This document shows, piece by piece, positions 2,495 through 8,552 of a DNA stretch of 64,000 bases; position 1 is the first letter of the stretch, and the number at the start of each line of letters is the position of its first letter. The position numbers were made by a program, and so were the translations under genes. The notes beneath the pieces are model-generated. The model saw nothing but the letters and a program-made list of their open reading frames with translations, had not been told where the DNA came from and searched no databases. Source of the stretch: Methanocorpusculum sp. (lineage in GTDB: Archaea; Halobacteriota; Methanomicrobia; Methanomicrobiales; Methanocorpusculaceae). Where the stretch lies: the NCBI RefSeq assembly GCF_030655665.1, contig NZ_JAUSPQ010000006.1, positions 248,001-312,000 of the forward strand, read 5' to 3'.

Positions 2495-3478
2495 ACGCAC
2501 ATACCTGATTTTCTGTTTGGTTATAGCGGACTCGGCGTCCCAATTGGTATCGTATTCTGGATAATTGCTCTTGTCTTTATTGCTCTTGCAATAAACTGGG
2601 CAAGGAAAAATCTTGACGAATCTAAAATCCCGATCCTTGCGGTCATCGCCGCAGGCATTTTTGCCCTTCAGGCATTCAATCTTCCTACCGGTTTTGGTGT
2701 ATCTGGACATTTAGTCGGCGGTGCTCTCGCAGCCATCATTCTCGGCTCGCCTTTTGCTGCTGTATTTATTTTGACGATCGTTCTTGTCATTCAGGCACTC
2801 ATCTTCGGTGACGGCGGAGTCCTGGCACTTGGTGCAAACATCATCAATATGGGTGTTGTTGCAGGATTTGTCGGATTTTACTCATTCAAAGGACTCAGAT
2901 CAGCTCTTCCAAAGCTTCCTCTCGCGGGAGCAGCAGGTATAGCAGCATGGCTTGCGTGTGTTATCGCTGCCTGTTGTGCCGCTGTTGAAATCGCCATTCT
3001 CGGCGCTGTTCCGATCTCGGTCGGTCTTCCGACAATGTTTATCTACCACGCGATCATCGGTATCATTGAAGGTATCATAACTGCGGTTGTGGTAACGCTT
3101 GTCTTCACCGTTCGCCCGGAACTGACGGGAGATACGACGAAAAAGGCTGTCCCGATCAAGAAGTTCCTTGTTGCTGGTCTTGTCATCGCTCTCATTATCG
3201 GGGGCTGTGCGGTCTTATTCGCATCAGGCGATCCGGACGGACTTGACAGCACACTGCTTGTGAGTGGAGGCGTTAAAGAAGTATTTGCTCCGGCAACGGG
3301 AGAAGAGATCATTGAAGCTGAAGATCCGATCGGATGGTCGGCGCCAATGCCTGATTATGCTCTCGGAGATAGTATGGCCGGTGGAATAATAGCCTTGATC
3401 ATAGGAATCTTTGCAGCTCTCGTTGTAATTCTCCTCGCGGCGAAGATCGTCTACTCCTCCTCAGGGAAGAGTAGTTAA
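2495..3478 (+). CDS. nikMN: Nickel/cobalt ECF permease, NikM-NikN (CbiM-CbiN) fusion type, ACG start
   Basis: 327 residues if translation starts at ACG 2495. The product then begins (M)HIPDFL, the CbiM/NikM N-terminus in which the N-terminal amine and His2 bind the metal. A second expected ligand lies in SGHLVGG (His72). Multiple membrane helices cover about 15-230; a CbiN-like part follows (GDPDGLDSTLL, then a final helix at about 295-320). In the family, this S-component captures Ni2+ or Co2+ and works with an ECF T-protein and ATPases (NikQ/NikO), which are absent here. The operator and neighbouring nikR favour nickel. Starting at the first normal start codon (TTG, far inside) would delete the metal site. 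Annotation pipelines will probably truncate this gene. Confidence 0.85.
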   Translation, partial: THIPDFLFGYSGLGVPIGIVFWIIALVFIALAINWARKNLDESKIPILAVIAAGIFALQAFNLPTGFGVSGHLVGGALAAIILGSPFAAVFILTIVLVIQALIFGDGGVLALGANIINMGVVAGFVGFYSFKGLRSALPKLPLAGAAGIAAWLACVIAACCAAVEIAILGAVPISVGLPTMFIYHAIIGIIEGIITAVVVTLVFTVRPELTGDTTKKAVPIKKFLVAGLVIALIIGGCAVLFASGDPDGLDSTLLVSGGVKEVFAPATGEEIIEAEDPIGWSAPMPDYALGDSMAGGIIALIIGIFAALVVILLAAKIVYSSSGKSS

Positions 3479-3570: not shown

Positions 3571-3990
3571 ATGGTTGGAGAGTCGGATCTTTCACGTATT
3601 GGTATTTCGCTGCCTGAGAATCTTCTGAATAAATTTGATGATATCATCGGGAAACGCGGATATTCTTCAAGATCGGAGGGGATCAGGGATGCGATCCGTT
3701 CCTATATCACGTATTATGAATGGATGAATGACGTTTCGGGAGAACGCCAGGGTGTCATTACGATGGTCTATGATCACGATCACCGCGGTCTTATGGAAGC
3801 GATCACGGAGATCCAGCATGGAAACAGACATATTGTCCAGTCCACTATCCATTCACATGTCAGTGATGAACGGTGTCTTGAGGTCATTCTTGTCCGTGGT
3901 CAGGGCGAACAGCTCAAAACGCTTGCAGAGCGCCTTATGTCTCTCAAAGGTGTTGAGTCAGTGAAACTGACAACAATAAAAATCGACTGA
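3571..3990 (+). CDS. nikR: Nickel-responsive regulator NikR
   Basis: 139 residues: an N-terminal ribbon-helix-helix DNA-binding domain (LSRIGISLPENLLNKFDDII, about 7-48) and a C-terminal ACT-like nickel domain. The four high-affinity Ni ligands are all present as His83, His94, His96 and Cys102, with exactly the spacing of E. coli NikR (76, 87, 89, 95). NikR represses nickel uptake when nickel is plentiful. It sits 92 bases after nikMN with a TATA-like ctaatatag at about 3541, so it may have its own promoter. Candidate targets in this window are the nikMN promoter and the chlID/cobN divergent promoter. Confidence 0.95.
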   Translation: MVGESDLSRIGISLPENLLNKFDDIIGKRGYSSRSEGIRDAIRSYITYYEWMNDVSGERQGVITMVYDHDHRGLMEAITEIQHGNRHIVQSTIHSHVSDERCLEVILVRGQGEQLKTLAERLMSLKGVESVKLTTIKID

Positions 3991-4019: not shown

Positions 4020-5159
4020 TTATTTATTCGTTTTTTGCTTCAGAGAAGCTCTGTCTATCAACGTATTCAGCACGCTCTCGATAAACAGAATCCCACCCTC
4101 GACCCCGGCAATTGGCCGTGCCGCTATCGAGACCCTGCTTCGGTCGGGCGGCGTGATCCCGAGGAATGCGGCGTTGGGATGGGCATTTGCTTCAAATGTT
4201 GATCCTAGAATAAGGTCAGGAGCGCAGTCAGCAATCTGCCTGGTGATCTTCGTCAGATCGGTTTCACAGGGAATAGATACTGCATCACTGTTTCGTGCAA
4301 GGATTACCGGGACCTCGGAGCCAAAATAATGTTCCATCATCACTGTGGCGAACACTGCGTAACTCTCCTGAGCGCAGACGGCCACGACCGGCGGTTCATA
4401 TTTTCGGAGATACTTGTCGCATGAATAAAAAATCTGCTCGTCAGCGCGTTTCCATTCCTCAAAAACCGGATCTGTATCTGCGTTCGGGAATGTATCTGCG
4501 AGTTTTGCACAGGTCTCTTTCAGATTGGAGAACAGAAATGAACCAAGCATCGTTCCGATTCCCGACGGGTACGACGGATTTACCGATACGGTATGGAGAG
4601 CCGCTCCCTGCCGGAGATTTTCATAGCTGTCTTTCGCGAATCGGACGGCCACCGGGATTCCCATTTGTGAGAGAAGCCGCTCGGCTTCGTGGAGATTTCC
4701 CCGCCAAAAGAGATCCAAAAGAGAAACCCCGTCGATGTTCACGCCTTCGCGCGATGGATCCGTCTTGATCCCGAGACTGTCGAAGGCGATCTTCGCTCCC
4801 TTCTCAACATTCCCGATAAATCCGGGAGCGTCGACAAAGATCCCTTCCCCTCCGGAAAACGCCCCCGAGAGATCATCGCCGGTAAGTGCCGGGATACAGG
4901 TGTTCAAAATGGCGATCGGTTTGTTCGACGTCGAAAGATTGCTCACGACTTCTCTCAGGCGGTTTACCGTCCCGAACACGATCTCCGACTCCAGGAGATA
5001 GGTGCTGAACAGCGGGACCTTCAGCAGTGACCGTGGATAATAATAGCAGCCTGAAGAGCCGTGGATAAGCACGTTGATCCCGGAAATGCCGGCAAGGACT
5101 GAACAGGCCCCTGTCATGGCGCACGGCCAGACCGGATTCACACACAGCCTTTCATCCAT
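4020..5159 (-). CDS. Nitrogenase-like protein, NifK/NifE-type subunit, function unknown
   Basis: 379 residues. The N-terminus aligns by eye with the P-cluster half of NifK: NPVWPCAMTGA (Cys13), IHGSSGCYYYPRS (Cys38) and LNTCIPALTGDDL (Cys88). The Cys spacings of 25 and 50 compare with 25 and 58 in NifK. The protein is much shorter than NifK (about 500 or more residues). It is the last gene of the nitrogenase-like operon and overlaps the NifD-like gene by 8 bases, so the two are probably coupled and form a heteromer. F430-forming CfbD is a single homodimeric subunit and does not come as a pair, so this is not standard CfbCD. No nifE, N or B is nearby. Substrate unknown. Confidence 0.85.
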   Translation of the reverse strand: MDERLCVNPVWPCAMTGACSVLAGISGINVLIHGSSGCYYYPRSLLKVPLFSTYLLESEIVFGTVNRLREVVSNLSTSNKPIAILNTCIPALTGDDLSGAFSGGEGIFVDAPGFIGNVEKGAKIAFDSLGIKTDPSREGVNIDGVSLLDLFWRGNLHEAERLLSQMGIPVAVRFAKDSYENLRQGAALHTVSVNPSYPSGIGTMLGSFLFSNLKETCAKLADTFPNADTDPVFEEWKRADEQIFYSCDKYLRKYEPPVVAVCAQESYAVFATVMMEHYFGSEVPVILARNSDAVSIPCETDLTKITRQIADCAPDLILGSTFEANAHPNAAFLGITPPDRSRVSIAARPIAGVEGGILFIESVLNTLIDRASLKQKTNK

Positions 5160-6207
5160 GGAGGATCGCCCTCCTCCAGAGATAGAGCATCTTCATTGTC
5201 CCGGATACCCCGACAGGCAGATAGAACGGCAGTCTCACTTTGATTCCCTTGGGAGACTCGGTCATCCCAAGGCGTTTTAGCGCTTCCCGTGCCACGGCAA
5301 GTGTTCCTTCGAACGGTTCGACCCCGAGGCAAACCTCGCTCTCGGAGAGATTTGCAAATCGTTCGAGCATCATTTTCTGGTGTTCAGTCTCTTTCGAAAT
5401 CGCTTCTGCGATAACGTCTGCAGAAAGTCCGCAGGCTTTTCCGGTCTCCTGCAAAAATGCGATCGAACCTGAGAGTCCCCGTGGAAACTCGCCGATCACC
5501 GGTCGGTTGAATCTCTTTCCAAGTTCACGTCCCGCATCTGCGCAGCGTCCGTCTCGTAAAATAAAACAAGAGACTGTTCCAAGTTTTCGGAGATCCGCTA
5601 TCCCGGCATTTCTGCAGAATCTGACCGTGACGGTAAGGTCCAGCAGATCGAGCAGCCGACTCACCTCGGCAAAATTCTCCTCGACCTCGGACTCCAGATT
5701 TTTTTCCCCGATGATTCCAACAGTCCCAGGAATCGGTTCGGCAGGCGCTGCCAGAGTTGAAAGTCCGATCAGTGCAGCGTTCTCCCCGTCCTTTGCACTC
5801 CCTCCAAGGAACCCGGATGTTGGAATATAGAGGGCCGACGCAGCATACGGATGTTCCCGGCAGACGGCCAGACAGTCATCGCCGATCGTTTCCGGCACGC
5901 AGGATGTAACTACGATGATCAGCTCCGGATGTTTCTCTGCTGCACGGTCAAGAGCCTGATTAAGACAGGCCTCTCCGCCGAAGATGACATCTTTGTCAGA
6001 AAGACCCGAGACCAGGATCTCAGGGACGATTTTCGTCTCCGCTTCGTTCATCAATGCATGGAGCATGGAAAATGTCTGATGGGCACAGCCTTTCGGGGCG
6101 TGAACTACCGTTACTGCCCCGGGAATAAAACAGGCGACGGAAAGGGCACCTGTGAGGGTGCACCCTGCCATCCTTGACTCAGAGATATTCTCTTGCAAGT
6201 TCTTCAA
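5152..6207 (-). CDS. Nitrogenase-like protein, NifD-type subunit, function unknown
   Basis: 351 residues. It carries the three P-cluster-type cysteines of NifD: Cys16 ([10 protein letters not shown]), Cys41 (HAPKGCAHQ) and Cys103 ([13 protein letters not shown]), spaced 25 and 62 (26 and 66 in NifD). The stretch [19 protein letters not shown] mirrors the NifD 'DIVFGG' region. It is short and lacks an obvious C-terminal cofactor-binding region, so a FeMo-type cofactor is doubtful. The start at 6207 overlaps the NifH-like gene by 29 bases; Met13 (6171), just after that gene's stop, is an equally good start. Neighbours: NifH-like upstream, NifK-like downstream, nickel genes beyond. Confidence 0.85.
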
Positions 6208-6985
6208 GTTCCTCTAATTCGAGCGGTGTCGGGATCCTGAGATCAGTGTTATCCAGCATCGTTTTTGCACAGTCACGGTAAACAGCCGCCTGCTCGGATG
6301 TCGGGTCGTGTTCGATGACCGTCATCTGATTCACTTCCGCTGTCCTGACCGAGTTGCTCCGCGGAATATAACAGATAAGCTTTGACCCGATCCTTTTTGC
6401 AAATTCCTCGACGAGTTCCTGTTCGTTCTCCATATTTCTCGCGTTGCAGATCACACCGGCAAGCCGGCATTTCGCGGTGCTTCGCTCCGATATCCGGGCT
6501 ATCGCTTTACAGATATTATTCGCCGCATAGAGACTCATCAATTCCCCGCTTGTCACAAGATAGACCTCTTGTGCATATCCGTCTCTCATCGGCATCGCAA
6601 ACCCTCCGCAGACGACATCGCCAAGAACATCATATACTATTACGTCCCCATAGAGCGAATTCATTTTTTCCAGAAGCTGGAACGTTGCAATGATCCCCCG
6701 ACCCGCACACCCGATCCCCGGCTCAGGTCCTCCTGCCTCGACACAGCGGATGTTCCCAAATCCCTGATAGATTATGTCCTCACTTTTGATCTTCTTCTGA
6801 TCATACATCTGTTCAAGAACGGTCGGGATCCAGCGTCCGTGCATGAGCATACGGGTACTGTCATGTTTCGGGTCACAGCCAATCTGCATGACATCCAGGT
6901 CCATCTCCGAAAATGCCGCCGAAAGATTTGCCGATGTAGTGGATTTTCCAATACCTCCCTTTCCATAGAGGGCGATCTGTCTCAT
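6179..6985 (-). CDS. NifH-like reductase of the nitrogenase-like operon
   Basis: 268 residues, the usual NifH length. P-loop GKGGIGKST (8-16), CDPKHDST (37-44), and both [4Fe-4S] ligands: Cys93 in [13 protein letters not shown] and Cys126 in [14 protein letters not shown]. In the family the homodimer bridges a cluster between its subunits and passes electrons to the DK-like partner with ATP hydrolysis. It leads the operon; a TATA-like ttatatg lies upstream on this strand. The match to NifH motifs is very close, but the partners are short and no nif cofactor genes are present, so I place it with the uncharacterised nitrogenase-like (group IV-type) reductases, not with nitrogenase. Confidence 0.9.
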
Positions 6986-7067: not shown

Positions 7068-8552
7068 TTATTCATCTCTCTTACGTGTGCCTTTTTGCGT
7101 ATCGAATCCCCGAAGGATACCCCATATCAGAATAAGCACCGGGATAATTTCCAGTCTGGTGATCCACATAACAAAGATAATAATGACTTTCGAGTAATCC
7201 GGCATCAGAGGTCCGATAACTCCGGTCGAGCTGCCGTTGTTTCCAATACAGCTGCAGAGATCATAGATCGTACCGGCGAGATTCTGCGAAAAGTACGGGT
7301 CGTGCAGGAGCACGATCAGTGTTCCGATCATGAGCAAAACATACAGCAGTATCACAAGAAGGGATTTTGTGATCAGTGTTTCCCCCGCTTTTCCGTAGAG
7401 AGGTTTTCCGTCGTGACGTATCGGGACCACTGCACGCGGACTCTGCAGCGTCTTTCTGAACCACCAGCTAAATGCTTCGAACATGATCTGGATACGATTC
7501 AGTTTGATACCTCCCGATGTACTTCCCTGGCCTCCTTCGATCATAAGGAATATCGAAAGGAACAGGATCGGCGCCATTCCCCAGCCGGCAAAGGTCGTGT
7601 TCTGGAATCCGGTAGAACTCACGACCGAACTGGCCATGAAGAGACTTTCCCGAAGGGTGTCCATGAGAGGCATTCCTGCGGTGAAAAGTTCAACGATCAA
7701 AACCGCTGAAACCAAAATGAACACGCCGATCAACATGTGCAGGATCCGGTCGTGCAGGATCTCCCGAAACGATCTGCTGACATATATCACATAATAGAGC
7801 CGGAACGGGATCGCTCCGGCGAGCATGATCGGAACCAAAACCATTTCGAGCGCAAAATTGTTAAAGTGTGTAATACCATCGGCATATATTGACATGCCTC
7901 CTGTGGCGATCGCACAAAAGGCAATGTTGACTGCGTCCCAGAGACTGAGTCCCGTCAGAAGAATTGCGAGAATCGCAATCAGCGTTAACGTGAGGTAGAT
8001 TTTCCACATCTGAAAAGCCGTCGCGATCACGCTCGGCATGAATGATTCCGATCCGCCTTCGGAGCGGTAGAGATTCTGGGTGACCAGTCCTGAGCGGCTT
8101 GCAACCGTCAGCGTGAATGCGACGATCCCGAGACCGCCGATCCACTGCATCAGTGAACGCCACAGAAGAATGGTGTTCGGCCAGTCTTCCAGATTCGTTG
8201 CAAGGGAAAATCCTGTCGCGGTCCACGCCGACATGGATTCGAACACAGCATCGAGGAATGGCATGCCTGCAAAAATGAAGGGAAAACATCCAAGAAATCC
8301 GACCAGAGCCCAGATAACAGCGGTCGCGGAGATCGAGAGACTTGCTCTCGGGGGTTTCGTGTTTTTCGGCAGAAGGTGAAGTAAACCGCCAATCCCCAGC
8401 ATCGCGACCGTGGAAGTTGCCATCCAGGGAAGAGCATACCATTCCTGATAGAGACACCCGACAATGATCGGAAGAAGTGTGGCGGCACCTATGAGCAGAA
8501 GTACTGACCCGATATCACGACCAATCGCCGGAAGTTCCCTGAGATACCCCAT
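7068..8552 (-). CDS. trkH: TrkH/KtrB-type potassium transporter membrane subunit
   Basis: 494 residues, of TrkH length, with about ten membrane helices. It shows the repeated pore-loop signatures of the family, such as SAWTATGFSL, AIATGGMSIY, ASSVVSSTGF and GNNGSSTGVIG. TrkH subunits take up K+ and need a cytosolic TrkA-type regulator, which is not in this window. It is transcribed alone, in the same direction as the nitrogenase-like operon but separated from it by about 80 bases. Confidence 0.92.
   Translation of the reverse strand: MGYLRELPAIGRDIGSVLLLIGAATLLPIIVGCLYQEWYALPWMATSTVAMLGIGGLLHLLPKNTKPPRASLSISATAVIWALVGFLGCFPFIFAGMPFLDAVFESMSAWTATGFSLATNLEDWPNTILLWRSLMQWIGGLGIVAFTLTVASRSGLVTQNLYRSEGGSESFMPSVIATAFQMWKIYLTLTLIAILAILLTGLSLWDAVNIAFCAIATGGMSIYADGITHFNNFALEMVLVPIMLAGAIPFRLYYVIYVSRSFREILHDRILHMLIGVFILVSAVLIVELFTAGMPLMDTLRESLFMASSVVSSTGFQNTTFAGWGMAPILFLSIFLMIEGGQGSTSGGIKLNRIQIMFEAFSWWFRKTLQSPRAVVPIRHDGKPLYGKAGETLITKSLLVILLYVLLMIGTLIVLLHDPYFSQNLAGTIYDLCSCIGNNGSSTGVIGPLMPDYSKVIIIFVMWITRLEIIPVLILIWGILRGFDTQKGTRKRDE

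Follow-up and report, generated by a model that had tools for sequence, protein, structure and literature searches.

An operon of cfbC and two short nitrogenase-like subunits in Methanomicrobiales: a candidate cofactor-less reductase with a P-cluster-type site

The window, that is, the whole stretch of 64,000 nucleotides of Methanocorpusculum DNA that was analyzed, carries three overlapping genes, H, D and K (Table 1). Their lengths, coordinates and overlaps agree with those in an earlier note on this DNA. Its description of conserved residues was also confirmed: in H, the P-loop and both cluster cysteines are invariant among 14 aligned homologues, and D and K each have three P-cluster-type cysteines, which are invariant in 77 D and 72 K homologues. 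The lengths of relatives favor the second TTG as the start of D. Values of dN/dS against Methanocorpusculum relatives (about 0.06 for H, about 0.12 for D and 0.09-0.19 for K) indicate that all three genes are maintained by purifying selection. Judged by this selection and by the Pfam E-values, which rule out chance matches, H, D and K are real genes.

Table 1. Features of the HDK locus in the window and positions of features at other loci (L numbers)
Feature	Position	Strand	Properties
nikMN, ECF nickel permease component	2495..3478	+	neighbor, outside the system
nikR	3571..3990	+	NikR_C match; convergent neighbor, outside the system
K, short NifK/N-like subunit	4020..5159	-	379 aa; PF00148, E 2.6e-30; P-cluster-type C13, C38, C88; cofactor cysteine absent
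D/K gene overlap	5152..5159	-	8 bases
D, short NifD/E-like subunit	5152..6207	-	351 aa from TTG (348 aa from second TTG at 6198); PF00148, E 8e-44; P-cluster-type C16, C41, C103; invariant R218 (5556-5554) at cofactor-cysteine position; domain III trimmed
H/D gene overlap	6179..6207	-	29 bases; 20 if TTG at 6198 is the start
H, NifH-type ATP-dependent reductase assigned as CfbC	6179..6985	-	268 aa; PF00142, E 5.4e-105; [4Fe-4S] cysteines C93 (codon 6709-6707) and C126 (6610-6608); P-loop GKGGIGKST
trkH-family potassium uptake gene	7068..8552	-	upstream of H
Second H-D-K-like operon, window genome	L014 3431-9676
H-D fusion and K' loci	L216, L217, L234, L283-L295
Split cobN	L216 1274-5032		two open frames, 853 and 347 aa
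Small protein beginning MLEKAGY	L208 7215-7730; L238 6624-7064; L064-L067		about 140-170 aa
Lone NifE-like genes	L219 5927-7117; L236 4044-5366; L235 498-1718; L237 7262-8539		about 400 aa

The earlier note had taken nikMN and nikR, next to the operon, as a clue to nickel. This neighborhood is not conserved: nik genes adjoin HDK in five of 88 loci, all from Methanocorpusculum, and the nickel link was rejected as a functional clue on this ground. The trkH-family gene is syntenic with HDK in 59 of 102 loci. No conserved partner gene was found downstream of HDK in the loci compared, outside Methanoregulaceae-type genomes, and the control rows of the neighborhood comparison revealed no tetrapyrrole genes at HDK loci. 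Methanoregulaceae-type genomes encode, downstream of cfbC or K, a small conserved protein beginning with MLEKAGY, for which a Pfam search gave no confident family. As for nikMN itself, no ATG, GTG or TTG precedes its HIPD motif; an ACG codon stands there, six bases after AGGTGA. The same arrangement is present in all six Methanocorpusculum-type sequences, several of which have an in-frame stop just upstream, and nikMN appears to use a conserved ACG start codon.

H scores 425 bits with the CfbC profile (NCBIfam NF033200, cut-off 402 bits) and 382 bits with the nifH profile, below its cut-off of 394 bits. The window genome (1.81 Mb) has three NifH-family genes in all, and H alone passes the CfbC cut-off; the genome's NifH (376 bits) and a second H, H2 (331 bits), fail it. 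A full nifHDKEN cluster (locus L015), missed by the earlier note, is encoded elsewhere in this genome, as is a cfbA-cfbE-cfbD-cfbB cluster (locus L016) whose cfbC slot is empty and whose cfbD, at 472 bits, is above the CfbD cut-off (268 bits). Hence, a search for a separate cfbCD finds only half of it, since cfbD lies elsewhere and cfbC is the H of the window. In other Halobacteriota families, cfbC is placed between cfbD and cfbB (L265, L266, L267, L278-L280), whereas it lies outside cfbA-E-D-B in every Methanomicrobiales member examined, including those that lack DK. Location in the cfb cluster is typical of CfbC and not defining.

The tree of H proteins groups those of HDK operons with the NifH-type protein of DK-less members of the order in one clade (94/93). 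Joining this clade with canonical CfbC is not rejected by the AU test (p-AU 0.587) and raises the likelihood slightly. NifH-family genes were counted at E <= 1e-60 in the 75 genomes of the order with a completeness of 90% or more. A single such gene is present in 51 of them, of which 50 carry DK and the remaining one is G047. H is the sole NifH-family gene in 50 of the 74 DK-bearing genomes. CfbD was scored in 22 genomes, 19 of them from Methanomicrobiales, and exceeds its cut-off in every one. Since most DK-bearing genomes have H as their sole Fe protein and encode CfbD at another place, H must serve CfbD; since it lies in an operon with DK, we infer that it also serves DK. By cut-off, tree and gene count, H is thus the CfbC of the genome and its only plausible one, contrary to the earlier note, which kept it apart from CfbCD. 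CfbC is predicted to deliver electrons to CfbD in an ATP-dependent manner, and the F430 pathway and DK appear to have this Fe protein in common.

The window genome also carries a second H-D-K-like operon, together with a Peripla_BP_2/FecCD/ABC (BtuCDF-type) importer. Its K2 keeps one P-cluster cysteine, and the operon resembles Mlab_1040/1039 of PMC3464626.

An alignment of 76 superfamily members, including 14 D and 14 K rows, was used to compare the metal-binding residues. All D and K rows keep the three P-cluster cysteines, CfbD rows have Ser-Cys-Cys and BchB rows Pro-Asp-Cys. At the position of the cofactor cysteine, NifD, VnfD and NifE have C, every D has R and nearly every K has N, and the L-cluster cysteine is C in all NifE rows and R in all D rows. 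The invariant R218 of D faces the FeMo-co ligand Cys275 of NifD. Moreover, the D profile aligns to NifE until D residue 320 (NifE 356), after which the 31 residues 321-351 of D face about 104 residues of NifE (357-460), so that about 75 residues of domain III, including the His442 region, are gone. The confident AlphaFold models of D (pLDDT 89.8, pTM 0.87) and K (pLDDT 93.8, pTM 0.92) show a predicted nitrogenase fold. Foldseek matched the D model with NifE, BchB, NifD and Mar (TM about 0.62-0.72 by query length) and the K model with VnfK/NifK/AnfK/NifN (TM about 0.8). As judged from the alignment, D and K are paralogues whose cysteines add up to a full six-cysteine P-cluster-type set, FeMo-co and L-cluster ligands being absent from both.

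In the subunit tree, which contained no Mar sequence, D forms one clade and K another (each 100/100), CfbD, NifD, NifE, NifK and NifN being separate clades. With the CfbD profile (TIGR03282, cut-off 268 bits), D scores 37 bits and K 27 bits. Membership of DK in the CfbD family is ruled out by these cut-offs and separate clades. The earlier note had envisaged a variant F430 pathway if both proteins belonged to the CfbD clade and no other cfbD existed; the genome has its own cfbD, and the D and K clades exclude CfbD. Its main proposal, a nitrogenase-like component of two different subunits that has a six-cysteine P-cluster-type site and is neither nif nor CfbD, is borne out by the cut-offs, the clades and the separate cfbD. 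CfbD has a very long branch, and AU tests do not reject it as sister of D (p 0.315) or of K (p 0.479). With long-branch rows removed, both subunits group with a system made of an H-D fusion protein and its partner K': the sister of D is the D half of the fusion (100/98.8), that of K is K' (92/88). The tree also contains a lone NifE-like protein, encoded near cfbB in Methanoculleus-type genomes, that retains the cofactor cysteine (LNIVxCE) along with the full set of P-cluster cysteines and forms its own clade (100/100).

The D profile was run on a sample of 394 genomes of the phylum, 84 of them from the order Methanomicrobiales. D was found in 82 of these 84 at scores of at least 353 bits and is absent in G047 and G149; the best match outside the D family reached 180 bits. 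A single-sequence query gave a match in 188 of 199 genomes of the order, some of these matches being other nitrogenase-like proteins only. These profile searches indicate that, within the phylum sample, the DK family is confined to Methanomicrobiales and nearly universal there, its carriers including Methanocorpusculum, Methanoculleus, Methanoregula, Methanofollis, Methanogenium and Methanolinea. For Methanoculleus thermophilus, natural transformation and the deletion of genes are on record (PMC9081873). Each of the 20 regions examined holds all three of H, D and K. They follow one another directly in this order save in Methanoculleus-type genomes, whose K has been relocated by a few kilobases, sometimes onto the other strand (L061-L063, L183, L196). 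One Methanoregula-type genome (G109) has two HDK operons (L281, L282) with D proteins that are 69% identical, reflecting either a duplication or a mixed bin. The short length of D and K and their missing cofactor ligands might be taken to mean that they are relics without catalytic function. We regard this as very improbable for genes under purifying selection that are near-universal in the order, whose six cysteines are invariant across 72-77 homologues and of which K was retained even after its relocation.

D and K are jointly absent from one genus-level group (g35) and from G047. In DK-less genomes, cfbC is directly followed by the small protein gene found downstream of K in DK-bearing Methanoregulaceae. 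Since the same small gene flanks either cfbC or K, DK is cleanly absent between conserved flanks. In the CfbD phylogeny, the DK-less genomes form one clade (96/91) inside the order, a pattern that fits a single loss; a later gain of DK in the other members would be less parsimonious but, the deeper nodes of the CfbD tree being weak, is still conceivable. An altered CfbD in DK-bearing genomes was considered, its profile scores looking lower, and rejected, as a single V/I column separates the CfbD of DK-bearing and DK-less genomes. CfbD being unaltered, and DK-less members keeping CfbCD, F430 can be made without DK, which is no part of its core synthesis.

This bears on the idea that DK is an auxiliary subunit of the F430 cyclase, helping CfbD or standing in for part of its work. 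The CfbD step is a six-electron reduction of Ni-sirohydrochlorin a,c-diamide. A helper would be consistent with the operon shared by DK and CfbC and with the prolonged incubation needed for CfbCD reduction in vitro (PMC7242693). However, CfbD is intact in DK-bearing genomes, and we consider such a role unlikely.

What DK reduces may be suggested by its closest relatives by both subunits, the H-D fusion and K'. Their 15 loci encode a BtuFCD-type importer (11/15), ChlD (8/15), CobN (7/15) and CbiK (7/15), so that the substrate of this sister system is probably a metal tetrapyrrole. In one of these loci, cobN is split. Taken together, the shared CfbC and the operons of the sister system point to tetrapyrroles as the likeliest class of substrate for DK. 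We give about even chances to the reading that the operon encodes a reductase that is driven by CfbC, has a P-cluster-type site but no cofactor, and acts on an organic substrate, most likely a (metallo)tetrapyrrole. Thus, of the nickel tetrapyrrole idea of the earlier note, the nickel neighborhood has fallen, while a tetrapyrrole link returns by way of the sister operons. Several points speak against a tetrapyrrole: the HDK loci themselves have no tetrapyrrole genes, the argument from the sister operons is one of guilt by association over a long branch, importers and chelatases in the sister operons could mean metal handling, and six P-cluster-type cysteines are also found in nitrogenases and archaeal NifEN, whereas CfbD and BchNB use fewer.

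According to this proposal of a tetrapyrrole reductase, CfbC would be reduced by a low-potential donor, e.g. ferredoxin, and, driven by ATP, would dock on the D-K heterodimer, probably as (DK)2. Electrons would then pass singly via the P-cluster-type Fe-S site to the organic substrate. The latter would sit where nitrogenase has its FeMo-co, in a cavity presumably vacated because D has lost the cofactor cysteine and most of domain III. Candidate conserved residues of this cavity are R184, R196, R218 and W344 in D and R161, R289 and E323 in K. Like CfbCD, DPOR and COR, the enzyme would act on a (metallo)tetrapyrrole, and the reaction would be specific to Methanomicrobiales and lie outside core F430 synthesis; a tailoring or salvage reduction of F430, of a corrinoid or of a siro-type tetrapyrrole is a candidate.

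Two other readings have to be weighed. First, DK might be a group IV enzyme in which CfbC drives the reduction of a non-tetrapyrrole substrate such as a sulfur compound, a small unsaturated metabolite or another cofactor. Nitrogenase-like enzymes of this kind exist, namely Mar (PMC12552129) and the isethionate NFL (PMC11423573), and both the retention of all six P-cluster-type cysteines and the lack of adjoining tetrapyrrole genes would agree with it. However, Mar carries an [Fe8S9C] cluster (PMC12552129), whereas D is devoid of the cofactor cysteine and of most of domain III, a loss that also weakens the carbon-sulfur alternative of the earlier note. Since, in addition, H is the CfbC of a tetrapyrrole pathway and the nearest relatives lie in tetrapyrrole chelatase operons, a non-tetrapyrrole substrate seems rather doubtful, while still a real contender. 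Second, DK might be a NifEN-like assembly or maturation scaffold, or an electron relay, for the activation of methyl-CoM reductase (MCR). NifE is the best PDB profile match of D, the MCR activation complex has L-type clusters, and NifB is essential in methanogens (PMC12176620). This role is improbable because D lacks the cofactor cysteine of NifE, and because DK is restricted to one order in the phylum sample and missing from one of its clades, whereas all methanogens need MCR activation.

Returning to a tetrapyrrole as substrate, it is conceivable, and proposed here only tentatively, that CfbC also drives a second, heteromeric P-cluster-type reductase making a previously unknown reduced tetrapyrrole nearly throughout the order. 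Such a compound may be a derivative of F430, of a corrinoid or of the siro type. To our knowledge, no earlier tetrapyrrole reductase has a six-cysteine P-cluster-type site; DK, if the proposal is true, would be the first. Modified F430s exist in other methanogens, and the enzymes for them are not known (PMC9081873); DK as an enzyme for a modified F430 is a possibility.

These results assign a likely Fe protein to a nearly universal, unassigned enzyme of a main methanogen order. The literature searched, mostly non-subscription, contained no description of the HDK operon and, most subscription papers lying outside its range, none joining CfbC and Methanomicrobiales; a 2009 comparative-genomics paper on Methanomicrobiales does not mention nitrogenase. 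Dos Santos et al. 2012 (PMC3464626) reports an importer-linked pair of M. labreanum and H-E fusions and gives no function for them. Within the nitrogenase superfamily, DK combines a full P-cluster-type site with a dismantled cofactor site, which is relevant to the divergence of cofactor-less reductases and nitrogenases. The DK-less clade provides a natural comparison group, and HDK a definite starting point in the search for tetrapyrroles specific to Methanomicrobiales.

Compared with known systems, HDK resembles CfbCD in that H is CfbC and the subunits are of CfbD size (about 350 aa), with a nitrogenase fold and no cofactor ligands. However, CfbD is a single homodimeric protein with two cysteines and a serine, whereas D and K are two distinct subunits with three cysteines each. 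NifEN and NifDK provide the best PDB profile matches (NifE for D, NifE/NifK for K), and D and K together have the six P-cluster cysteines of NifDK; unlike them, D and K are shorter and have no cofactor cysteine, D has no His442 region of domain III, no nifB/EN partner genes lie beside HDK, and H remains below the NifH cut-off. DPOR (BchNB) is likewise a cofactor-less nitrogenase-like reductase, and BchB is among the best structural matches to D. However, DPOR and COR combine three cysteines of BchN with an Asp of BchB where K has Cys, and DPOR is no sister clade of D or K in the tree. MarD has a ligand of the [Fe8S9C] cluster (PMC12552129) at a site where D has no cysteine. The yellow-node pairs of Dos Santos et al. 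2012 share the 3+3 P-cluster cysteines and the absence of FeMo-co ligands; the paper (PMC3464626) describes this class generally, and its available text does not name the CfbC-linked, order-wide family. Finally, the H-D fusion/K' system differs from HDK in that its H is fused to D, whereas H is separate here; K' lacks two of the three cysteines, all of which K keeps; and it is scattered in distribution and found in BtuFCD/CobN/ChlD/CbiK operons, genes that are absent from HDK loci.
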